DNA of 44,406 nucleotides from Lachnospiraceae bacterium. Its GTDB lineage: Bacteria; Bacillota; Clostridia; Lachnospirales; Lachnospiraceae. Location of the stretch: NCBI GenBank assembly GCA_017936785.1, contig JAGBEV010000050.1, positions 1 through 44,406 on the forward strand, read 5' to 3'. How positions within the stretch are numbered: position 1 is the first letter of the stretch; every line of letters begins with the position of its first letter. Position numbers and translations under genes: made by a program. The notes under the pieces are model-generated. The model had not been told where the DNA came from. It made no database searches and saw only the letters and a program-made list of their open reading frames with translations. Of the stretch, positions 4,523-44,092 are shown in pieces.

Positions 4523-4963
4523 ATGGAATTATCAAATTTAAGACCTGCGGAAGGTTCTAAACACAGTGATAATTTTAGAAGAGGCCGTGGACACGGATCA
4601 GGTAACGGCAAAACCGCTGGTAAAGGCCACAAAGGACAGAAAGCCCGTTCCGGAGCTCCCAGAGTTGGTTTTGAAGGTGGACAGATGCCTTTATACAGAA
4701 GAATTCCTAAGAGGGGATTCAAGAATAGAAATTCTAAAGAAATCGTTGGCATTAATTTAACTGCATTGGAAAGATTTGATGATGGTGCTACAGTTGATGT
4801 AGAAGCATTGTTAAATGCAGGCGTTATTAAAAATCCAAGAGATGGAGTTAAGATCCTCGGAAACGGAGAACTTACCAAAAAGCTTACAGTTAAAGTAGAT
4901 GCTTTCAGCGCATCCGCTAAAGAAAAAATTGAAGCAGTTGGTGGAACAGCAGAGGTGATCTAA
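4523..4963 (+). CDS. rplO: 50S ribosomal protein L15
   Basis: This 146-residue protein is L15, a late-assembly protein of the large subunit with a long glycine- and arginine-rich N-terminal extension. The N-terminus [13 protein letters not shown] and the [21 protein letters not shown] segment are diagnostic, as are [18 protein letters not shown] and [10 protein letters not shown]. Its stop codon overlaps the secY start by one base (TAATG), so secY translation is probably coupled to rplO. Confidence 0.98.
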
Positions 4964-8520: not shown

Positions 8521-8759
8521 TCCACAATTAACAGACCAGAAGTGGAAGCTTTATCGGATCGAAAAGCGGCTGAGGCATGTCCTGCCGTCATCAGGATGTG
8601 CTGTTTAAGATAATTGAACGTAGATGAGCCTACGGGAGATTACTTATTGATACCGAGAAGACATCTTTAGTATCGGAAAGATCGGGTAGATACCCGGTTG
8701 GGGATCCTATATCCCCCAATCAATTAGTAACTATTTAAACAAATGGAGGAATTTTTAAA
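8521..8759 (+). promoter_or_regulatory. Structured leader upstream of rpsM
   Basis: The 239 bases between rpmJ and rpsM contain no gene but several hairpins: TCCTG (8580-8584) with CAGGA (8592-8596); CGTAG (8619-8623) with CTACG (8630-8634); CGGGT (8683-8687) with ACCCG (8692-8696), with a 4-base loop; and TTGGGG (8698-8703) with CCCCAA (8714-8719). No U-tract follows, and the rpsM ribosome binding site (GGAGGA) is about 25 bases beyond the last stem. Long structured leaders before alpha-operon genes often bind a ribosomal protein such as S4; that role here is inference. Confidence 0.6.
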
Positions 8760-11982: not shown

Positions 11983-12240
11983 CTTTGCATTGGAAAGGTT
12001 TTGGTGGGGAGCCGTGGGGTAGTTGTCTCTGTTTTCCATACAGATCGTCCGCCATGGATTTTCTAATGGCTTTTTTCAAAGTGGATTTGGGGTGCTGGTA
12101 ACGGACGGGAACGCCTGCAACGGACATCCTTGTCCGAAGCAGGCTTGTGCGGACGTCCTGTCCGCCCATCCCTTACGCCACGACTCTATTTACAAACTGG
12201 TGCCGGAAGAAGTGATAAAAGAAATGTGGGAATCATAAGT
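11983..12240. other. Non-coding stretch with nested-hairpin element and gene remnant
   Basis: No convincing gene lies here. The core at 12098-12176 is strongly dyadic: an outer stem from 12098-12109 with 12165-12176 (10 of 12 pairs), inner stems GCCTGC (12113-12118) with GCAGGC (12139-12144) and CGGAC (12121-12125) with GTCCG (12132-12136) around AA/AA internal loops, and GCGGAC (12149-12154) with GTCCGC (12160-12165). A 71-codon open frame at 12023-12238 crosses it and ends in a protein-like tail (PEEVIKEMWES), so this may be a gene remnant carrying a mobile repeat. The inner hairpin resembles the one at 43954-43985. Confidence 0.5.
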
Positions 12241-38857: not shown

Positions 38858-38887
38858 TTGACAAAAGAAATGGTATAGTTGTATTAT
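38858..38887 (+). promoter_or_regulatory. Promoter upstream of the ATP-grasp operon
   Basis: TTGACA (38858-38863) is followed after 18 bases by TATTAT (38882-38887), giving a start near 38894. It lies 160-195 bases before the first gene of the amidoligase-type operon. An intrinsic-terminator-like hairpin follows within about 60 bases. Confidence 0.65.
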
Positions 38888-38921
38888 TGTATACAATAAG
38901 AAGAGGATAAAGGAAAGAGAC

Positions 38922-38954
38922 AAAGGCGTTCTGTTAGATGCAGAACGCCTTTTT
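38922..38954 (+). terminator. Leader terminator or attenuator
   Basis: AAAGGCGTTCTG (38922-38933) pairs perfectly with CAGAACGCCTTT (38941-38952) around a 7-base loop, and the T-run continues to 38954. It lies between the promoter at 38858 and the gene at 39054, so transcripts from that promoter should end after about 60 bases unless it is bypassed. That makes it an attenuator candidate or the end of a small RNA. The remaining leader (38955-39053) contains no gene. Confidence 0.8.
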
Positions 38955-39053
38955 GTGTGGTAATACCATATTTCGGCATAAAAGGCTACGATCATAAAGT
39001 CGGCAAAATGCTTGAAAAAATCGGTAAGAGCCCATAAGCAGGGAGGGATGATT

Positions 39054-40373
39054 ATGTATGATTTGGATCTGTTGGAACATACGGATACAGTAAATGAGCT
39101 GTTGGCACGCTATGGAGTAAAATTCGGTATCTATAAAAACAATACCTTTAAGGAACAATTGTTTCCTTTTGACGCCATTCCCAGGATCATTGAAAAAATG
39201 GAATTTGATTATCTGGAAAGAGGTTTAAAGCAAAGAGTTGTGGCACTGAATCTGTTCTTAAAGGATATTTACAGTGAAAAAAAGATCGTAAAGGATCATG
39301 TGGTTCCGGAGGATTTTATTTTTGCTTCCAGCGGCTATATGGCAGAATGTGAAGGCGTGGTGCCTCCAAAGGACATTTATTCCCATATATCAGGTATTGA
39401 TCTGGTGCAGGGGAAAGATAAAAGCTGGTATGTGCTGGAGGATAACCTGAGGGTTCCTTCGGGAGCGTCTTATCCCATGATAGCCAGAGAGTTATGCCGC
39501 AGGAGCAGCCCTTTGACGTTCCAGAGTAACAAGCTGGAGGATAACAGGAATTATGCCAAACTGTTACGACGCACTATGGATCATGTAAATGTGGGAGGCC
39601 ATACAGTCATTCTCACGCCGGGCAGATACAATGCAGCTTATTTTGAACATTCCTATCTTGCCGAGAAAACAGGAGCCCATCTGGTAAATGGTTCTGAGCT
39701 AAGAGTTAAAGATGATAAACTGTATTATGTAAACTACAACGGAGACCTGGAGCAAGTAGGAGCGGTTTACAGGAGAATTTCCGATGAATATCTTGATCCT
39801 ATGAATTTTAATCCCGAGTCGGTTATCGGTATTCCTCATATTTATGATGTATTCCGTAAGGGGAATGTGGCATTGATCAATGCGCCTGGCAACGGTATTG
39901 CAGATGATAAGGGAATTTACTATTTTGTTCCCAAGATGATCAAGTACTATCTGGGAGAGGAGCCGATCTTAAATAATGCTCCCACATATCTGCCTTTCTA
40001 CGAAGAGGATATGAAATATGTCCTTGAAAACTTTGATAAGCTGGTATTAAAAGATGTTGCAGAAGCAGGGGGCTATGGTGTAGTTTTCGGCAGCAGTATG
40101 AGCGCGGAGCAGAAGGAGAAATTTATTGCTCTTCTGAAAAAAGAACCCAGAAGGTTTATTGCCCAGGAGGTCATTGATTTCCTGGATATCGATATCCTGG
40201 AGGGAAGTGAAACGCTTCCGAGGAAGGCAGATCTGCGTGCCTTTGTATTGATGGCAGATGAACCGCTTGTATGGAAAAGCGGGCTGACCAGATTTTCCAG
40301 AAACCCGGATTCCTTTATTGTTAATTCATCACAGGGAGGAGGATTTAAGGACACATGGGTATTATCTCAGTAG
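39054..40373 (+). CDS. Circularly permuted ATP-grasp protein (DUF404/DUF407 type)
   Basis: This 439-residue protein belongs to the circularly permuted ATP-grasp family. Hallmarks are PFDAIPRIIEKMEFDYLERGLKQR, YVLEDNLRVPSGASYP, the VGIPHIYDVFRKGNVALINAPGNGIADDK segment and LKDVAEAGGYGVVFG, with the C-terminal RKADLRAFVLMADEP region that carries acidic metal ligands. It should join a carboxylate to an amine with ATP, forming an amide. The frame opens at 39012; GGGAGG supports the ATG at 39054. It overlaps the next gene by 19 bases. The substrate is unknown. Confidence 0.88.
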   Translation: MYDLDLLEHTDTVNELLARYGVKFGIYKNNTFKEQLFPFDAIPRIIEKMEFDYLERGLKQRVVALNLFLKDIYSEKKIVKDHVVPEDFIFASSGYMAECEGVVPPKDIYSHISGIDLVQGKDKSWYVLEDNLRVPSGASYPMIARELCRRSSPLTFQSNKLEDNRNYAKLLRRTMDHVNVGGHTVILTPGRYNAAYFEHSYLAEKTGAHLVNGSELRVKDDKLYYVNYNGDLEQVGAVYRRISDEYLDPMNFNPESVIGIPHIYDVFRKGNVALINAPGNGIADDKGIYYFVPKMIKYYLGEEPILNNAPTYLPFYEEDMKYVLENFDKLVLKDVAEAGGYGVVFGSSMSAEQKEKFIALLKKEPRRFIAQEVIDFLDIDILEGSETLPRKADLRAFVLMADEPLVWKSGLTRFSRNPDSFIVNSSQGGGFKDTWVLSQ

Positions 40374-41017
40374 AACAGACAAACAGATTATTATGGTTGG
40401 GAAGATATTCGGAAAGGGTGTATACAACCCTCCGCCTGTATTCCAACAGCTTCGATATGATGATCGATGAGATCACGGACAGTTATTCAGAATTTTGTAA
40501 AATGATCGATATTCCCGATGTTTATGGATCTAAAGAGGTATTTAAGGAAAAATACCCCTTTGATGAGGAGAATCCCGATTCCATTTTCAGCAATTTAAAC
40601 CGTGCCTATGACAATGCCATTGTGCTCAGGGAGGAGATCGGTTCCGAGGCTTTATCCTATATCCAGCTTGCCATTTATGATATGAATAAGGCGAGGATCA
40701 GCAGAGCGCCTTTGATCGAAATGCAGCGGGTCATTGATAATATCCTTGCCTTTTGGGGAATCGTAGATGACAGTATTGATTCTGAGCAGGTCCGCAACAT
40801 TATCAAGACCGGAAAACGGATCGAGAGAATCGACCTGTATGCCAGACTGGGCATTGAGCGTAAGGAACTGGTCCGTGAGATCAACCGCCTTGTGCCCAGA
40901 ATCCAGCGAAGCGGCATGGAGTACCGGGAAGATAAAATTAACGCACTGAAAGAACTTGTGGCAGAGCCTGAAATCAATTATTATAGGATTGTATATGAAG
41001 TAGAATCAATCTTATAA
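40355..41017 (+). CDS. Alpha-E domain protein (DUF403)
   Basis: This 220-residue all-helical protein begins GIISVEQTNRLLWLGRYSERVYTTLRLYS, the signature of the alpha-E domain. These proteins occur next to circularly permuted ATP-grasp and transglutaminase-like genes and are thought to act with them in a predicted peptide- or amide-forming pathway, possibly as a scaffold. The start lies inside the end of the ATP-grasp gene with GGGAGGAGG upstream, so translation is likely coupled. Confidence 0.88.
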   Translation: MGIISVEQTNRLLWLGRYSERVYTTLRLYSNSFDMMIDEITDSYSEFCKMIDIPDVYGSKEVFKEKYPFDEENPDSIFSNLNRAYDNAIVLREEIGSEALSYIQLAIYDMNKARISRAPLIEMQRVIDNILAFWGIVDDSIDSEQVRNIIKTGKRIERIDLYARLGIERKELVREINRLVPRIQRSGMEYREDKINALKELVAEPEINYYRIVYEVESIL

Positions 41018-41030
41018 AGGAGTACTAAGG

Positions 41031-41840
41031 GTGAAAAAGCTACATTTTGATTACTATATGCAGTTGGCATATAGTGAACAGGTGCAGAAGTGTCATTTTA
41101 CGATCAAGTGTATCCCGCAAAGTGGGGACAGGCAGAAGATAGAAGAAATCAATATTGAAATAGAGCCTAAGGACAGTCTGGAAAAGGGCGTGGATTCCTT
41201 TGGAAATCAGATTTTATTTGGCAATGTGATGGAAGAGCATGACAGGTTCTTTTTCCATATTACGGGGAATGTCCACACGGGACTTGCTGATAGCGAACCT
41301 ATGGGAAATGAAAATATCCTGGGAGTTTATCGGTATCCCTATGGTCTGACCGTTCCGGGGAAATGTCTCAGGGCTTATTTTGAAAGTCTGAATTTAAGTC
41401 AGGAGCAGTCTGCTTATGAAAAAGGCATTTTCCTGATGCACAAGCTGTATGAGGACTTTTCCTATGAAAAAAATGTAACGGGCGTGGATACCACGGCGGA
41501 GGAAGCGTGGCAGCTTGGTAAAGGTGTTTGTCAGGACTATGCCCATATTTTGATCGTGCTGTGTCGTCTGGCGGGGATTCCGGCAAGATATGTGGCGGGA
41601 ATGTTAATAGGAGAAGGCTACAGCCACGCATGGGTAGAGATATTATCAGAGGACAGATGGTATGGGCTGGACCCTACCAATGACTGTATTGTGACCGATT
41701 CCCATATCAAGATCGGGATCGGAAGGGATGCGGCTGATTGTATGATCAATAAAGGCGTTATGACCGGCGGCGGGCAGCAGACCCAGGATATCCATGTCAC
41801 TGTAACTGAATTGCCGGAAGCTGGGGAAAATATGAGTTAA
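41031..41840 (+). CDS. Transglutaminase-like cysteine peptidase
   Basis: This 269-residue protein has an N-terminal beta-rich domain and a transglutaminase-like papain-fold core. The catalytic triad is visible: Cys167 in KGVCQDYAH, His199 in GYSHAWVE and Asp214 in YGLDPTND. Prokaryotic members usually cleave or transfer peptide amide bonds. The start is GTG behind AAGGAG. It has no signal peptide, so it should be cytosolic. It lies 13 bases after the alpha-E gene. Confidence 0.88.
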   Translation: MKKLHFDYYMQLAYSEQVQKCHFTIKCIPQSGDRQKIEEINIEIEPKDSLEKGVDSFGNQILFGNVMEEHDRFFFHITGNVHTGLADSEPMGNENILGVYRYPYGLTVPGKCLRAYFESLNLSQEQSAYEKGIFLMHKLYEDFSYEKNVTGVDTTAEEAWQLGKGVCQDYAHILIVLCRLAGIPARYVAGMLIGEGYSHAWVEILSEDRWYGLDPTNDCIVTDSHIKIGIGRDAADCMINKGVMTGGGQQTQDIHVTVTELPEAGENMS

Positions 41841-41856
41841 AGAGGGTAATAAAAGT

Positions 41857-42807
41857 ATGGTTAAAACAGTTGCATCTGTGGGGCTTCCCGTAGATGAAGT
41901 TTTGGAAATAAAGAAAAACCACATTACGCCGGATAAACCGGCAAAGGGAAAAAAGAAAAGGATCAGCGTAGTAACGGGAATCCATGGAGACGAACTGGAA
42001 GGACAGTTTGTCTGTTTTGAACTTGTCAGGCGTATTCATGAGGAAAAAGACAAATTAACAGGCATCGTGGATATTTATCCCGCAATGAACCCTTTGGGGA
42101 TCGATTCCATTACCCGTGGAATTCCGGGATTTGATCTGGATATGAACCGTCTGTTTCCGGGGAACAGTGAAGGAGATATGACAGAATTCCTTGCTTCGGA
42201 GATCATTGATGATGTGGCAGGTTCGGATGTATGTATTGATATTCATGCAAGCAACATTTATCTGACAGAGATCCCTCAGATCAGGATCAATGAATTGCAT
42301 AAGGAAAAACTGGTGCCCCTGGCGGAAAAGATCAATGTGGATTTTATCTGGGTCCACGGAGCCAATACGGTTTTGGAGTCCACCTTCGCCCACAGCTTAA
42401 ACAGCAGGAATGTACCGACGCTGGTAGTGGAAATGGGCGTGGGAATGCGTATTACCAAGTCCTACTGCCAGCAATTGGTTGACGGCATTTTTAATCTGAT
42501 GAGGGAAATGGGAATCTGGCAGGGAGAGACCGTTGAGCCAAGAAAGCCTATTATTTCCCAGAACCCTGATGATGTCAGTTATCTGAATGCAAGCACGTCC
42601 GGCGTGTTTGTTCCGAATGTAAAGCATTGGGAACATTTGAAAAAGGGAGATCATATCGGCAGTATCATCGATCCTTTACGCGGAAAGGTGCTGGACAAAA
42701 TTCTTTCTCCTGTGGACGGCATTCTTTTTACCATCAGAGAATATCCCATTGTGGACGAAGGCTCTCTTGTGGGAAGGCTGCTGCGGGATGAGGCATTGCA
42801 GTCATAG
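41857..42807 (+). CDS. M14-family succinylglutamate desuccinylase/aspartoacylase-like hydrolase
   Basis: This 316-residue protein is a zinc hydrolase of the AstE/AspA group. The metal ligands are His43 and Glu46 in GIHGDELEG and His130 in CIDIHASN, and NRLFPG is also typical. The C-terminal part (SPVDGILFTIREYP) is the beta-barrel domain found in this group. It should release an amine-linked acyl or terminal residue from a small peptide-like substrate. It begins 16 bases after the transglutaminase gene. Confidence 0.88.
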   Translation: MVKTVASVGLPVDEVLEIKKNHITPDKPAKGKKKRISVVTGIHGDELEGQFVCFELVRRIHEEKDKLTGIVDIYPAMNPLGIDSITRGIPGFDLDMNRLFPGNSEGDMTEFLASEIIDDVAGSDVCIDIHASNIYLTEIPQIRINELHKEKLVPLAEKINVDFIWVHGANTVLESTFAHSLNSRNVPTLVVEMGVGMRITKSYCQQLVDGIFNLMREMGIWQGETVEPRKPIISQNPDDVSYLNASTSGVFVPNVKHWEHLKKGDHIGSIIDPLRGKVLDKILSPVDGILFTIREYPIVDEGSLVGRLLRDEALQS

Positions 42808-42898
42808 GCGGCAGAACAGGAATTTTAATGAAATTCCAGTAAATAAGAAAAGGTCAGGAAGAAGCGATTCTTTTTGATGATGGAAAGGCATGGACTTC

Positions 42899-43834
42899 AT
42901 GAAAAAGAAAACCATTTATGAGATAAATTCATTATATCGGGATAATTTCCGGGTAACAGGATATGAATTTGGGAAAGGAAAAAAGTCCGTCTGTATCGTG
43001 GGCAGCATCCGCGGCAATGAGATCCAGCAGCTTTATACCTGCTCCCAGTTAGTGAAGCGGTTAAAGAAAATGGAAGAAGAGGGAAAATTAAAGAAGGGGC
43101 ATAAGATTTTGGTTGTTCCTTCCATCAATCCTTATTCCATGAATATTAAAAAGCGTTTCTGGTCTACGGATAATACGGATATTAACAGAATGTTTCCCGG
43201 ATATAGTCTGGGTGAAACAACCCAGCGGATCGCGGCAGGGGTATTTGAAGTCATCAAGGACTATGAGTATGGTATGCAGTTTGCATCTTTTTATATGCCG
43301 GGTACATTTACGCCTCATATCCGTATGATGAAAGCTGGCTTTGAAAATGTGGAACTTGCTAAGGAATTTGGTATGCCTTATGTGGTTCTTAGGAATACCA
43401 GACCTTATGATACGACTACATTGAATTATAACTGGCAGGTATGGGAAACCAATGCTTTCAGTATTTATACCACTACCACGGCAGAAGTGGATAAGGAAAG
43501 TGCGGGGATGGCAATCCGCAGTATCCTGACTTTTTTATCCAAAGAAGGTATTGTAGAGTATCATGGTCATGACGGGTATCAGTCTCTTGTTGTGGAGGAT
43601 ACGGATATGATCCCGGTCAGGACAAAGGTTGCAGGAATTTTTGAAAGTGAAGTGAAGGTAGGAGCAGAAGTTTATAAAGGACAGGTTCTTGCAAAGGTCA
43701 TTGATCCATATGAAGGAGAAGTGACAGAAGTTTTAACGGCACCGGTGGATGGAATGGTATTTTTCGCACATAACGATCCGCTGACTTATGCGGATACGGC
43801 AGTGTTTAAGCTGGTGGCGGGAGAAGCGTTGTAG
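42899..43834 (+). CDS. M14-like paralogue lacking zinc-ligand histidines
   Basis: This 311-residue protein resembles its neighbour in fold landmarks (NRMFPGYSLGETTQRIAA; APVDGMVFFAHNDPL). The first metal site reads GSIRGNE instead of GxHGxE, so the His is Arg38 while Glu41 remains. The DIHAS position reads MQFASFY, so the second His is Phe. It is probably not a zinc hydrolase and could be a regulatory or binding subunit of the active paralogue. An in-frame ATG at 42890 has poor spacing to GGAAAGG; 42899 fits better. Confidence 0.82.
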   Translation: MKKKTIYEINSLYRDNFRVTGYEFGKGKKSVCIVGSIRGNEIQQLYTCSQLVKRLKKMEEEGKLKKGHKILVVPSINPYSMNIKKRFWSTDNTDINRMFPGYSLGETTQRIAAGVFEVIKDYEYGMQFASFYMPGTFTPHIRMMKAGFENVELAKEFGMPYVVLRNTRPYDTTTLNYNWQVWETNAFSIYTTTTAEVDKESAGMAIRSILTFLSKEGIVEYHGHDGYQSLVVEDTDMIPVRTKVAGIFESEVKVGAEVYKGQVLAKVIDPYEGEVTEVLTAPVDGMVFFAHNDPLTYADTAVFKLVAGEAL

Positions 43835-43861: not shown

Positions 43862-44092
43862 GCAGAAAAAATTGTTGTTTGCTTTTTTGTGCTGAGCTGC
43901 AAAGTGGGAGTTTTCTAACAGAATGAATGAAAGCTGTGGAAAGCGGTCGGGGCGCCGTCAAGCGGCATCCGTGCCGCGAGACGGCTAAACAGCCCGTCCA
44001 TGGGCTGTTTCCCCTGGGGTATCGGATCATTCTGTAAGAAAACTTCCACTTTGCAGCATAAGCACAGAAAAGCAAACAACAATTTTTTCTGC
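43862..44092. mobile_element. MITE-like element with long terminal inverted repeats
   Basis: The left arm at 43862-43926 and the right arm at 44027-44092 are inverted copies of 65 and 66 bases that match at about nine of ten positions. The roughly 100-base centre contains nested hairpins: GCCGTC (43954-43959) with GACGGC (43980-43985), GCGGCA (43962-43967) with TGCCGC (43972-43977), and AAACAGCCC (43987-43995) with GGGCTGTTT (44002-44010). No transposase gene is present. No clear target-site duplication is seen. It follows the M14-like paralogue and could also end that transcript. Confidence 0.75.

Follow-up and report, generated by a model that had tools for sequence, protein, structure and literature searches.

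A conserved ATP-grasp, alpha-E, transglutaminase and twin M14 operon of gut Clostridia, probably part of a nitrogen regulon

In the stretch of DNA analysed here (44,406 nucleotides, contig JAGBEV010000050.1 of the Lachnospiraceae bacterium assembly GCA_017936785.1; hereafter the window), five neighbouring genes encode an ATP-grasp protein, an alpha-E protein, a transglutaminase-like protein and two M14-type relatives, the hydrolase M14A and its metal-free twin M14B. We consider it rather probable that these genes constitute one nitrogen-responsive operon, which both builds and degrades a nitrogen-rich metabolite with an amide or isopeptide linkage. The best clue to its function is the leader that precedes it, a feature on which the original prediction did not comment. 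As the same leader is found before glutamine synthetase and PII/ammonium transporter genes, the operon probably belongs to a nitrogen regulon, and its product probably to nitrogen metabolism.

The original prediction had described five co-directional genes, with an intact ATP-grasp of 439 residues, an intact transglutaminase fold and an intact zinc hydrolase accompanied by a metal-free twin. All of this agrees with the five intact open reading frames (ORFs) read on the forward strand of the window and with their Pfam matches:

39054..40373, + strand: ATP-grasp, circularly permuted type 2, 439 amino acids (PF14403, 1.9e-133; closest solved relative 3n6x)
40355..41017, + strand: alpha-E protein, 220 amino acids (PF04168, 9.5e-21, over model positions 7-164 of 294 only)
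41031..41840, + strand: transglutaminase-like protein, 269 amino acids (PF01841, 7.9e-20, plus PF08379)
41857..42807, + strand: M14A, AstE/AspA-type zinc hydrolase with intact catalytic residues, 316 amino acids (PF24827, 7.7e-23)
42890..43834, + strand: M14B, twin without zinc ligands or catalytic Glu, NR motif kept, 314 amino acids (PF24827, 2.9e-11); alternative start at ATG 42899

Conservation and distribution of the operon

Two kinds of collection were compared: 80 named loci, seeded with M14B and representing the best 80 of at least 581 relatives, and samples of 200 genomes from the family, 146 from the order and 398 from the phylum. All five genes stand in the same order in 70 of the 80 named loci, a recurrence which argues that this order is not due to chance. 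Seven of the ten others end at a contig edge (L066, L086, L088, L091, L094, L111 and L136), two are incomplete (L079 and L108) and L101 is a split pair without ATP-grasp. Since the named loci are the closest relatives, the figure of 70/80 does not describe the M14 pairs that occur without an ATP-grasp. The closest named relative among the loci found, a Lachnospiraceae metagenome-assembled genome, has an M14B 84% identical to that of the window. Regarding gene spacing, the alpha-E 5' end overlaps the ATP-grasp 3' end by 19 nucleotides (nt) in the window, as it does in exactly this form in 59 of 70 loci, and the frames of M14A and M14B overlap in 60 of 79 loci; the remaining gaps in the window are 13 nt (alpha-E to transglutaminase-like), 16 nt (transglutaminase-like to M14A) and 82 nt (M14A to M14B).

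In the family sample, an ATP-grasp match is present in 31 genomes, M14B in 51 and both in 28 (Fisher 5e-17), and the three ATP-grasp genomes without M14B (G556, G561 and G617) have only partial ATP-grasp matches. The original reading of the five genes as a single pathway depended on the M14 pair being linked to the other three genes elsewhere, and this linkage was found, M14B being encoded on the same contig and strand as the ATP-grasp in 25 of the 31 family genomes that have the latter. Co-occurrence is not strict in either direction: 23 of the 51 M14B genomes of the family gave no ATP-grasp match and, in the phylum sample, where nine genomes have the ATP-grasp (own genome included), the pair lies behind the transglutaminase gene in six and is absent in three. 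In the order sample the pair adjoins the ATP-grasp in all six genomes that have one, own genome included; G128, of the same sample, has an in-frame stop inside its ATP-grasp. The arrangement had been thought possibly specific to Clostridia, a suggestion that does not hold, as G389, G444 and G466, which belong to other classes of the phylum, have the operon too. Comparison thus shows, at the level of sequence, a conserved unit in which the ATP-grasp and alpha-E genes, like the M14A and M14B genes, are usually in overlapping frames.

Several loci depart from this organization. The operon or the pair was met in genomes labelled Gastranaerophilales, Bacteroidales, Treponema and Spirochaetales (L093, L100, L101 and L109), which may reflect transfer or mislabelled bins. 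Genome G628 (L202) has a leader and, behind it, an ORF with an ATP-grasp match in its N-terminal part and an end similar to that of M14B, a state which looks like an operon lost through one internal deletion.

The leader and its regulon

Upstream of the ATP-grasp gene, four elements can be placed in the window:

38858..38887, + strand: promoter-like TTGACA-18-TATTAT, 11 of 12 matches, best in an 8-kilobase scan
38886..38897, no strand assigned: palindrome ATTGTATACAAT, a possible operator, exact in the window
38917..38932, + strand: candidate antiterminator stem GAGAC-[AAAGGC]-GTTCT, overlapping the terminator, with 3 of 4 inner pairs in the window
38922..38956, + strand: leader terminator hairpin (stem-loop 38922-38952) with T-rich tail, matched at 38912-38962 by the covariance model R1

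The start at 38858 proposed originally coincides with the promoter match; regarding the protein itself, the ATP-grasp likely begins at ATG 39054, preceded by AGGGAGGG at 39040-39047, which gives the 439 residues (the query sequences used began at 39051, one Ile codon before). A promoter match was obtained in 31 of 35 operon leaders examined, with a median of 18 nt (range 6-63) between the -10 end and the hairpin, this distance being 34 nt in the window. The palindrome was rejected as an operator of general occurrence, since even in looser form it occurs in just 6 of 70 relatives.

Where 80 nt or more of space is available upstream of the ATP-grasp, 35 of 51 loci have a terminator-like hairpin there, versus 50 of 273 control upstream regions of the same loci, and GCGTT occurs in the stem in 19/51 versus 3/273. 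Of 71 leaders examined, 39 had the hairpin, and removal of six deviating ones and two near-copies left 31; the alignment of these 31 leaders supports 13 pairs, 10 of them with compensatory changes, with 99.3% of cells paired, and no shuffle reaches the observed values. The covariance model built from these operon leaders, 52 positions long, matches at the ATP-grasp in 45 of the 70 full loci (E 0.01), 30 of these 45 having served to build it. In L073, L076, L083, L112 and L137 the match lies further upstream. A match within 300 nt upstream of the ATP-grasp was found in at least 17 of the 31 ATP-grasp genomes of the family sample; outside the family, the element also precedes the ATP-grasp in L055 and L056, at E 0.004 and 0.016. 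An Rfam scan of the operon leader gave nothing over the gathering score, the best weak match being RefA9, at 31.6 of 49 bits and on the other strand. By sequence inspection, L134, L135 and L140 have a tandem of terminator-like hairpins upstream of the ATP-grasp, and the model matches twice in close succession in L115, L134 and L140.

Searched in the family sample, the leader model matches in 168 of 200 genomes. The window's own genome has three copies, located before the operon, before glnA with an ANTAR gene, and before an ammonium transporter fused to PII. From among the matches listed, 84 distinct sites were taken (E 4.8e-8 to 2.2e-4; largely, though not without exception, the top-ranking ones) and classed by the first recognised downstream gene, using BLAST to references from the same loci and a Pfam check of selected members. 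Glutamine synthetase III follows 27 of these sites, PII/ammonium transporter genes 11, the five-gene operon 9 (a class favoured in the ranking, as the model was built from operon leaders) and glutamine synthetase I 5. Smaller classes are PurF-like genes (3, of which one stands 829 nt downstream with another ORF in between), ornithine-cyclodeaminase-like genes with PII (2), CarAB (1) and CTP synthase (1), the names ornithine-cyclodeaminase-like and CTP synthase being our own reading. In total, 50 of the 84 sites precede nitrogen-assimilation or glutamine-using genes. Possible further members of the regulon are a PucR-type regulator gene (L224) and unassigned genes (L245, L176, L248 and others), each preceded by a leader copy. 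In L088, a copy at 4753-4802 lies 23 nt before a peptidase C26 gene neighbouring the operon, which may share the regulon. In the literature surveyed, which barely covered the leader topic and does not establish its novelty, we recognised no account of the M14 variant or of the leader.

A candidate antiterminator of ANTAR type

The 5' part of the leader can form a competing stem, N4-[hexaloop]-N4, of which AAAGGC is the commonest loop. This antiterminator pairs fully in 65 of 89 distinct sites (123 collected), versus a mean of 37 and a maximum of 48 for shuffled tails. On alignment A4, 93.5% of its cells pair and its covariation score beats all 500 shuffles, as in three measures. Position 1 of the hexaloop is A in 73 of the 89 sites and position 4 is G in 85, the search pattern having permitted only A or G there. 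According to PMC3369931, A and G at loop positions 1 and 4 are the rule for recognition by ANTAR proteins, whose target is a dual hairpin. Like the leaders controlled by EutV, NasR and AmiR, the leader studied here has a short hairpin, with a mostly A1/G4 hexaloop, that overlaps a terminator, precedes nitrogen genes and co-occurs with ANTAR genes; it differs from them in being a single hairpin near the transcription start, without the P1 hairpin. The ANTAR test covered 64 of the 200 family genomes (44 of the 168 with the element and 20 of the 32 without): ANTAR genes were present in all 44 element-bearing genomes, that of the window included, versus 10 of the 20 others. By analogy, we infer that the leader works in the manner of ANTAR control, membership of that class not being claimed, and the co-occurrence of the genes suggests that an ANTAR protein may act on it.

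The explanation that we favour would then run as follows. When nitrogen is short, an ANTAR protein, such as the one encoded directly behind glnA, would stabilise the short hexaloop hairpin; with this hairpin held, the terminator would not form and the operon would be transcribed. The ATP-grasp, together with the alpha-E protein, would activate a carboxylate with ATP and join it to an amine, and the transglutaminase-like enzyme would exchange or hydrolyse the bond so made. M14A, which M14B would hold or gate within a heteromer, would hydrolyse an amide next to a free alpha-carboxylate, and the two M14 proteins would occupy the place of the proteobacterial Anbu.

Several observations weigh against this explanation. 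Regarding the leader, 25 of the 70 full loci have no match at the ATP-grasp (four of them having less than 80 nt upstream), none was found at L024, L025, L026, L057, L060 and L061 nor at five loci with the M14 pair and no ATP-grasp, and 25 of the 84 leader sites have no assigned gene. Regarding the antiterminator, the stem in the window has a mismatch, its loop being present, and 62 of 500 shuffles reach the count of doubly changed pairs on alignment A4. The hexaloop is also an arm of the terminator and was searched with an A/G-only pattern, so that its conservation may have another cause. A P1-like first hairpin was seen in only 2 of the 31 leaders with a matched promoter, the window not being one of them. 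The p value for ANTAR co-occurrence, 1.2e-6, ignores relatedness and genome completeness. Finally, the window lacks the M14A/M14B overlap.

M14A and its metal-free twin

In AstE/AspA hydrolases of the M14 type, HxxE and a further His are the zinc ligands, NR forms the carboxylate site and a Glu is catalytic. All these motifs (HGDE, second His, NR and Glu) are kept in 15 of 15 M14A sequences. In the window M14B, RGNE replaces HGDE, Ala replaces the second His, the Glu is missing and NR is retained; the 14 close-type M14B sequences likewise have RGNE, with Ala, Thr or Val at the second His, no Glu, and DINR-FPG kept. The two His ligands are therefore absent in 14 of 16 B sequences and the Glu in 16 of 16, the second copies of G444 and G466 keeping HGDE and the second His without the Glu. 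The same state, zinc ligands kept and Glu absent, is found in all six B copies among nine genomes of the order to which G444 and G466 belong.

In the tree computed without the very long outgroup row L046, B forms one clade (100/98) and A another (95/96), under a long-branch warning; with this row, B is split in two and two changes are needed. In the better-behaved tree, M14B would thus have arisen by one duplication, and the simplest history would be one duplication followed by loss of the Glu and then of the zinc ligands, the distant clade with zinc ligands and no Glu likely being an intermediate stage still extant. Placing the ATP-grasp-free pairs on the tree requires one change in A and one in B, from which M14A and M14B have probably moved together. 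In the window's own genome, of 3.4 Mb and with the window as contig C31, a second M14A-M14B pair (L022:7431-9307, contig C51) lies directly behind a TetR-type regulator gene, with neither ATP-grasp nor leader model match. The occurrence of pairs without ATP-grasp, this second pair among them, points to a portable unit that also works elsewhere. In L057 (4669-6204, - strand), an S-adenosylmethionine (SAM) methyltransferase domain is fused to the M14B C-terminus.

The loss of the active site has not relaxed M14B: 83 of its positions are at least 97% conserved (81 sequences), versus 109 in M14A (79 sequences), by which it is constrained nearly as strongly. AlphaFold models have a mean predicted local distance difference test score (pLDDT) of 90 for M14B and 82 for M14A, the low-confidence stretches of M14A being 83-101 and 172-174. 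Indirectly, frame coupling suggests that M14A and M14B may form a complex. Trimming or sensing of the product, as proposed originally, would be a candidate role for the pair. Alternatively, M14B might be an enzyme in its own right, with a rebuilt metal-free site, acting apart from M14A and not as its accessory subunit. The former zinc site has not decayed, being fixed as the new motifs RGNE, SxY and FSxY in at least 97% of the 81 sequences; against this, B follows A with overlapping frames in most loci and the two genes probably moved together, and we hold an independent enzyme to be unlikely.

The model folds of both M14 proteins match DoeB (6twm), CphZ (8ein and 8eip) and AstE/AspA structures without named function, and the catalytic residues of M14A are like those of DoeB and CphZ. 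The differences are a low identity in the fold alignments (only 14-19%) and the pairing of M14A with a twin lacking the site. DoeB and CphZ are amidohydrolases of N-acylated or isopeptide amino acids, and the nearness of the M14 folds to them supports an amide- or isopeptide-linked product. A link to cyanophycin itself was rejected, as none of the 200 family genomes has a cyanophycin synthetase over the TIGR02068 cut-off; the weaker matches listed cover only about model positions 459-855, taken to be the Mur-ligase-like part.

The other three proteins

The ATP-grasp is the best conserved protein of the operon, with a mean identity of 83% to the window. Only one close solved relative of its profile was found, 3n6x (E 8.1e-188), a putative glutathionylspermidine synthase, the name itself reading 'putative'. 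The alpha-E protein of the window is about 100 amino acids shorter than those of distant relatives; its length is 188-233 amino acids in nine close-type loci versus 307-336 in four others. In one distant relative, it is fused to a transglutaminase domain. C167, H199 and D214 of the transglutaminase-like protein, conserved in at least 97% of 73 sequences, are predicted from motifs to be the catalytic triad.

Comparison with Anbu operons

The ATP-grasp/alpha-E/transglutaminase operon occurs in several phyla and, as far as the available text of PMC6376114 and PMC5666114 goes, its function is not established there. Five of 117 plasmid records with a match were inspected. One Paracoccus and one Limimaricola record have the ATP-grasp, alpha-E and transglutaminase genes followed by a PF00227 protein as the fourth, the Rhizobium and Hymenobacter records have the first three genes only, and the fifth, from Paenibacillus, carries no annotation there. 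The proteobacterial Anbu operons share with the window the first three genes and their order, as well as, in Burkholderia and P. putida, nitrogen-responsive core genes according to the papers cited below; the window differs in having M14A-M14B for Anbu, a shorter alpha-E and a leader terminator instead of NtrC. Anbu was rejected as a partner encoded by the window's own genome, since the M14 pair fills the place of the fourth gene and the single PF00227 match of this genome, on another contig, is below cut-off.

Several reports bear on the physiology of these operons. The ATP-grasp of the Anbu operon releases orthophosphate from ATP, Anbu expression rises under nitrogen limitation, and no Anbu peptidase activity appeared in the tests made (PMC6376114; PMC5666114), expression of the operon being unchanged under various other conditions (PMC5666114). 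The core genes are part of the NtrC regulon in Burkholderia cenocepacia (PMC5491218), PP_2685 and PP_2688 of P. putida (ATP-grasp and proteasome-like genes) are up on nitrate versus ammonium (PMC8050072), and marine correlation networks place the operon domains near urea metabolism (PMC3597751). The core genes thus seem to answer to nitrogen through two unrelated regulators, NtrC and, from our analysis, the leader terminator.

From gene context, PMC6376114 proposes protein tagging for the Anbu operon. Transposed to the window, the ATP-grasp and the transglutaminase-like protein would couple proteins to an amino acid or a peptide, and the M14 pair, whose folds include carboxypeptidases, would take this tag off again, as in the ubiquitin and Pup cycles. 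However, among small ORFs (25-95 amino acids) lying no further than 700 nt from the core genes, none recurs in more than 5 of the 70 full loci (E 1e-3), a tag encoded elsewhere being possible, and no larger neighbour recurs in more than 16 of the 80 loci. Published tests detected neither Anbu peptidase activity nor a complex of Anbu with other operon proteins (PMC6376114), and tagging appears very improbable.

Neighbouring genes and alternative roles

In the same gene run as the operon, the 80 loci contain an ABC transporter ATPase (11), FUSC-HAD (8), peptidase C26 (7), CysK (4) and citrate synthase (4). These recurrent neighbours, counted without a random-gene control, give a faint hint of amino-acid metabolism.

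The operon might be scavenging, salvaging nitrogen from imported N-acyl or isopeptide amino acids, with M14A and the transglutaminase-like enzyme cutting amides and the ATP-grasp remodelling the products. The nitrogen leader, the amino-acid-type ABC transporter genes (9-11 of 80 loci), the C26 peptidase of gamma-glutamyl hydrolase type (7 of 80), the catabolic role of CphZ and, by its title, that of DoeB in ectoine use are all consistent with salvage. Yet the best conserved gene is an ATP-consuming ligase, which scavenging alone does not need, most loci lack the transporters, and neighbour counts were made without a random-gene background. Salvage thus remains a minority reading, possible but not the one we would choose.

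A secreted small molecule, whose precursor the M14 pair would trim before export, is suggested by the FUSC-type exporter with HAD domain in 8 of 80 loci, requiring 7 changes on the tree. This exporter is, however, absent from most loci, and co-regulation with glutamine synthetase speaks for core metabolism; we judge export quite improbable. A nitrogen-responsive operon with a metabolite both made and broken is the explanation that we retain.

Other RNA elements of the window

Two TwoAYGGAY RNAs exceed the Rfam gathering score, one at 43893-44060 (- strand), directly behind the operon on the other strand, and one at 12070-12195 (- strand). An S4-Clostridia ribosomal protein leader at 8676-8724 (+ strand) is barely above its gathering score.

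Conclusions and perspectives

The M14 pair provides a clear case of an enzyme duplicate that has seemingly lost first the base and later the metal of its site, while selection continued to act on its sequence. With nitrogen control of the core genes apparently exerted by two unrelated regulators, the search for the product narrows to nitrogen-limited cells. Moreover, the 52-position leader model offers a first regulon map for the window's family of gut Clostridia. More speculatively, and tentatively at best, gut Clostridia may run a nitrogen regulon through single-hairpin ANTAR antiterminators near the transcription start, a regulon that would include an unrecognised nitrogen-reserve pathway in which an isopeptide metabolite made by ATP-grasp and alpha-E would be released by a twin-gated zinc hydrolase, as a counterpart of cyanophycin without cyanophycin.

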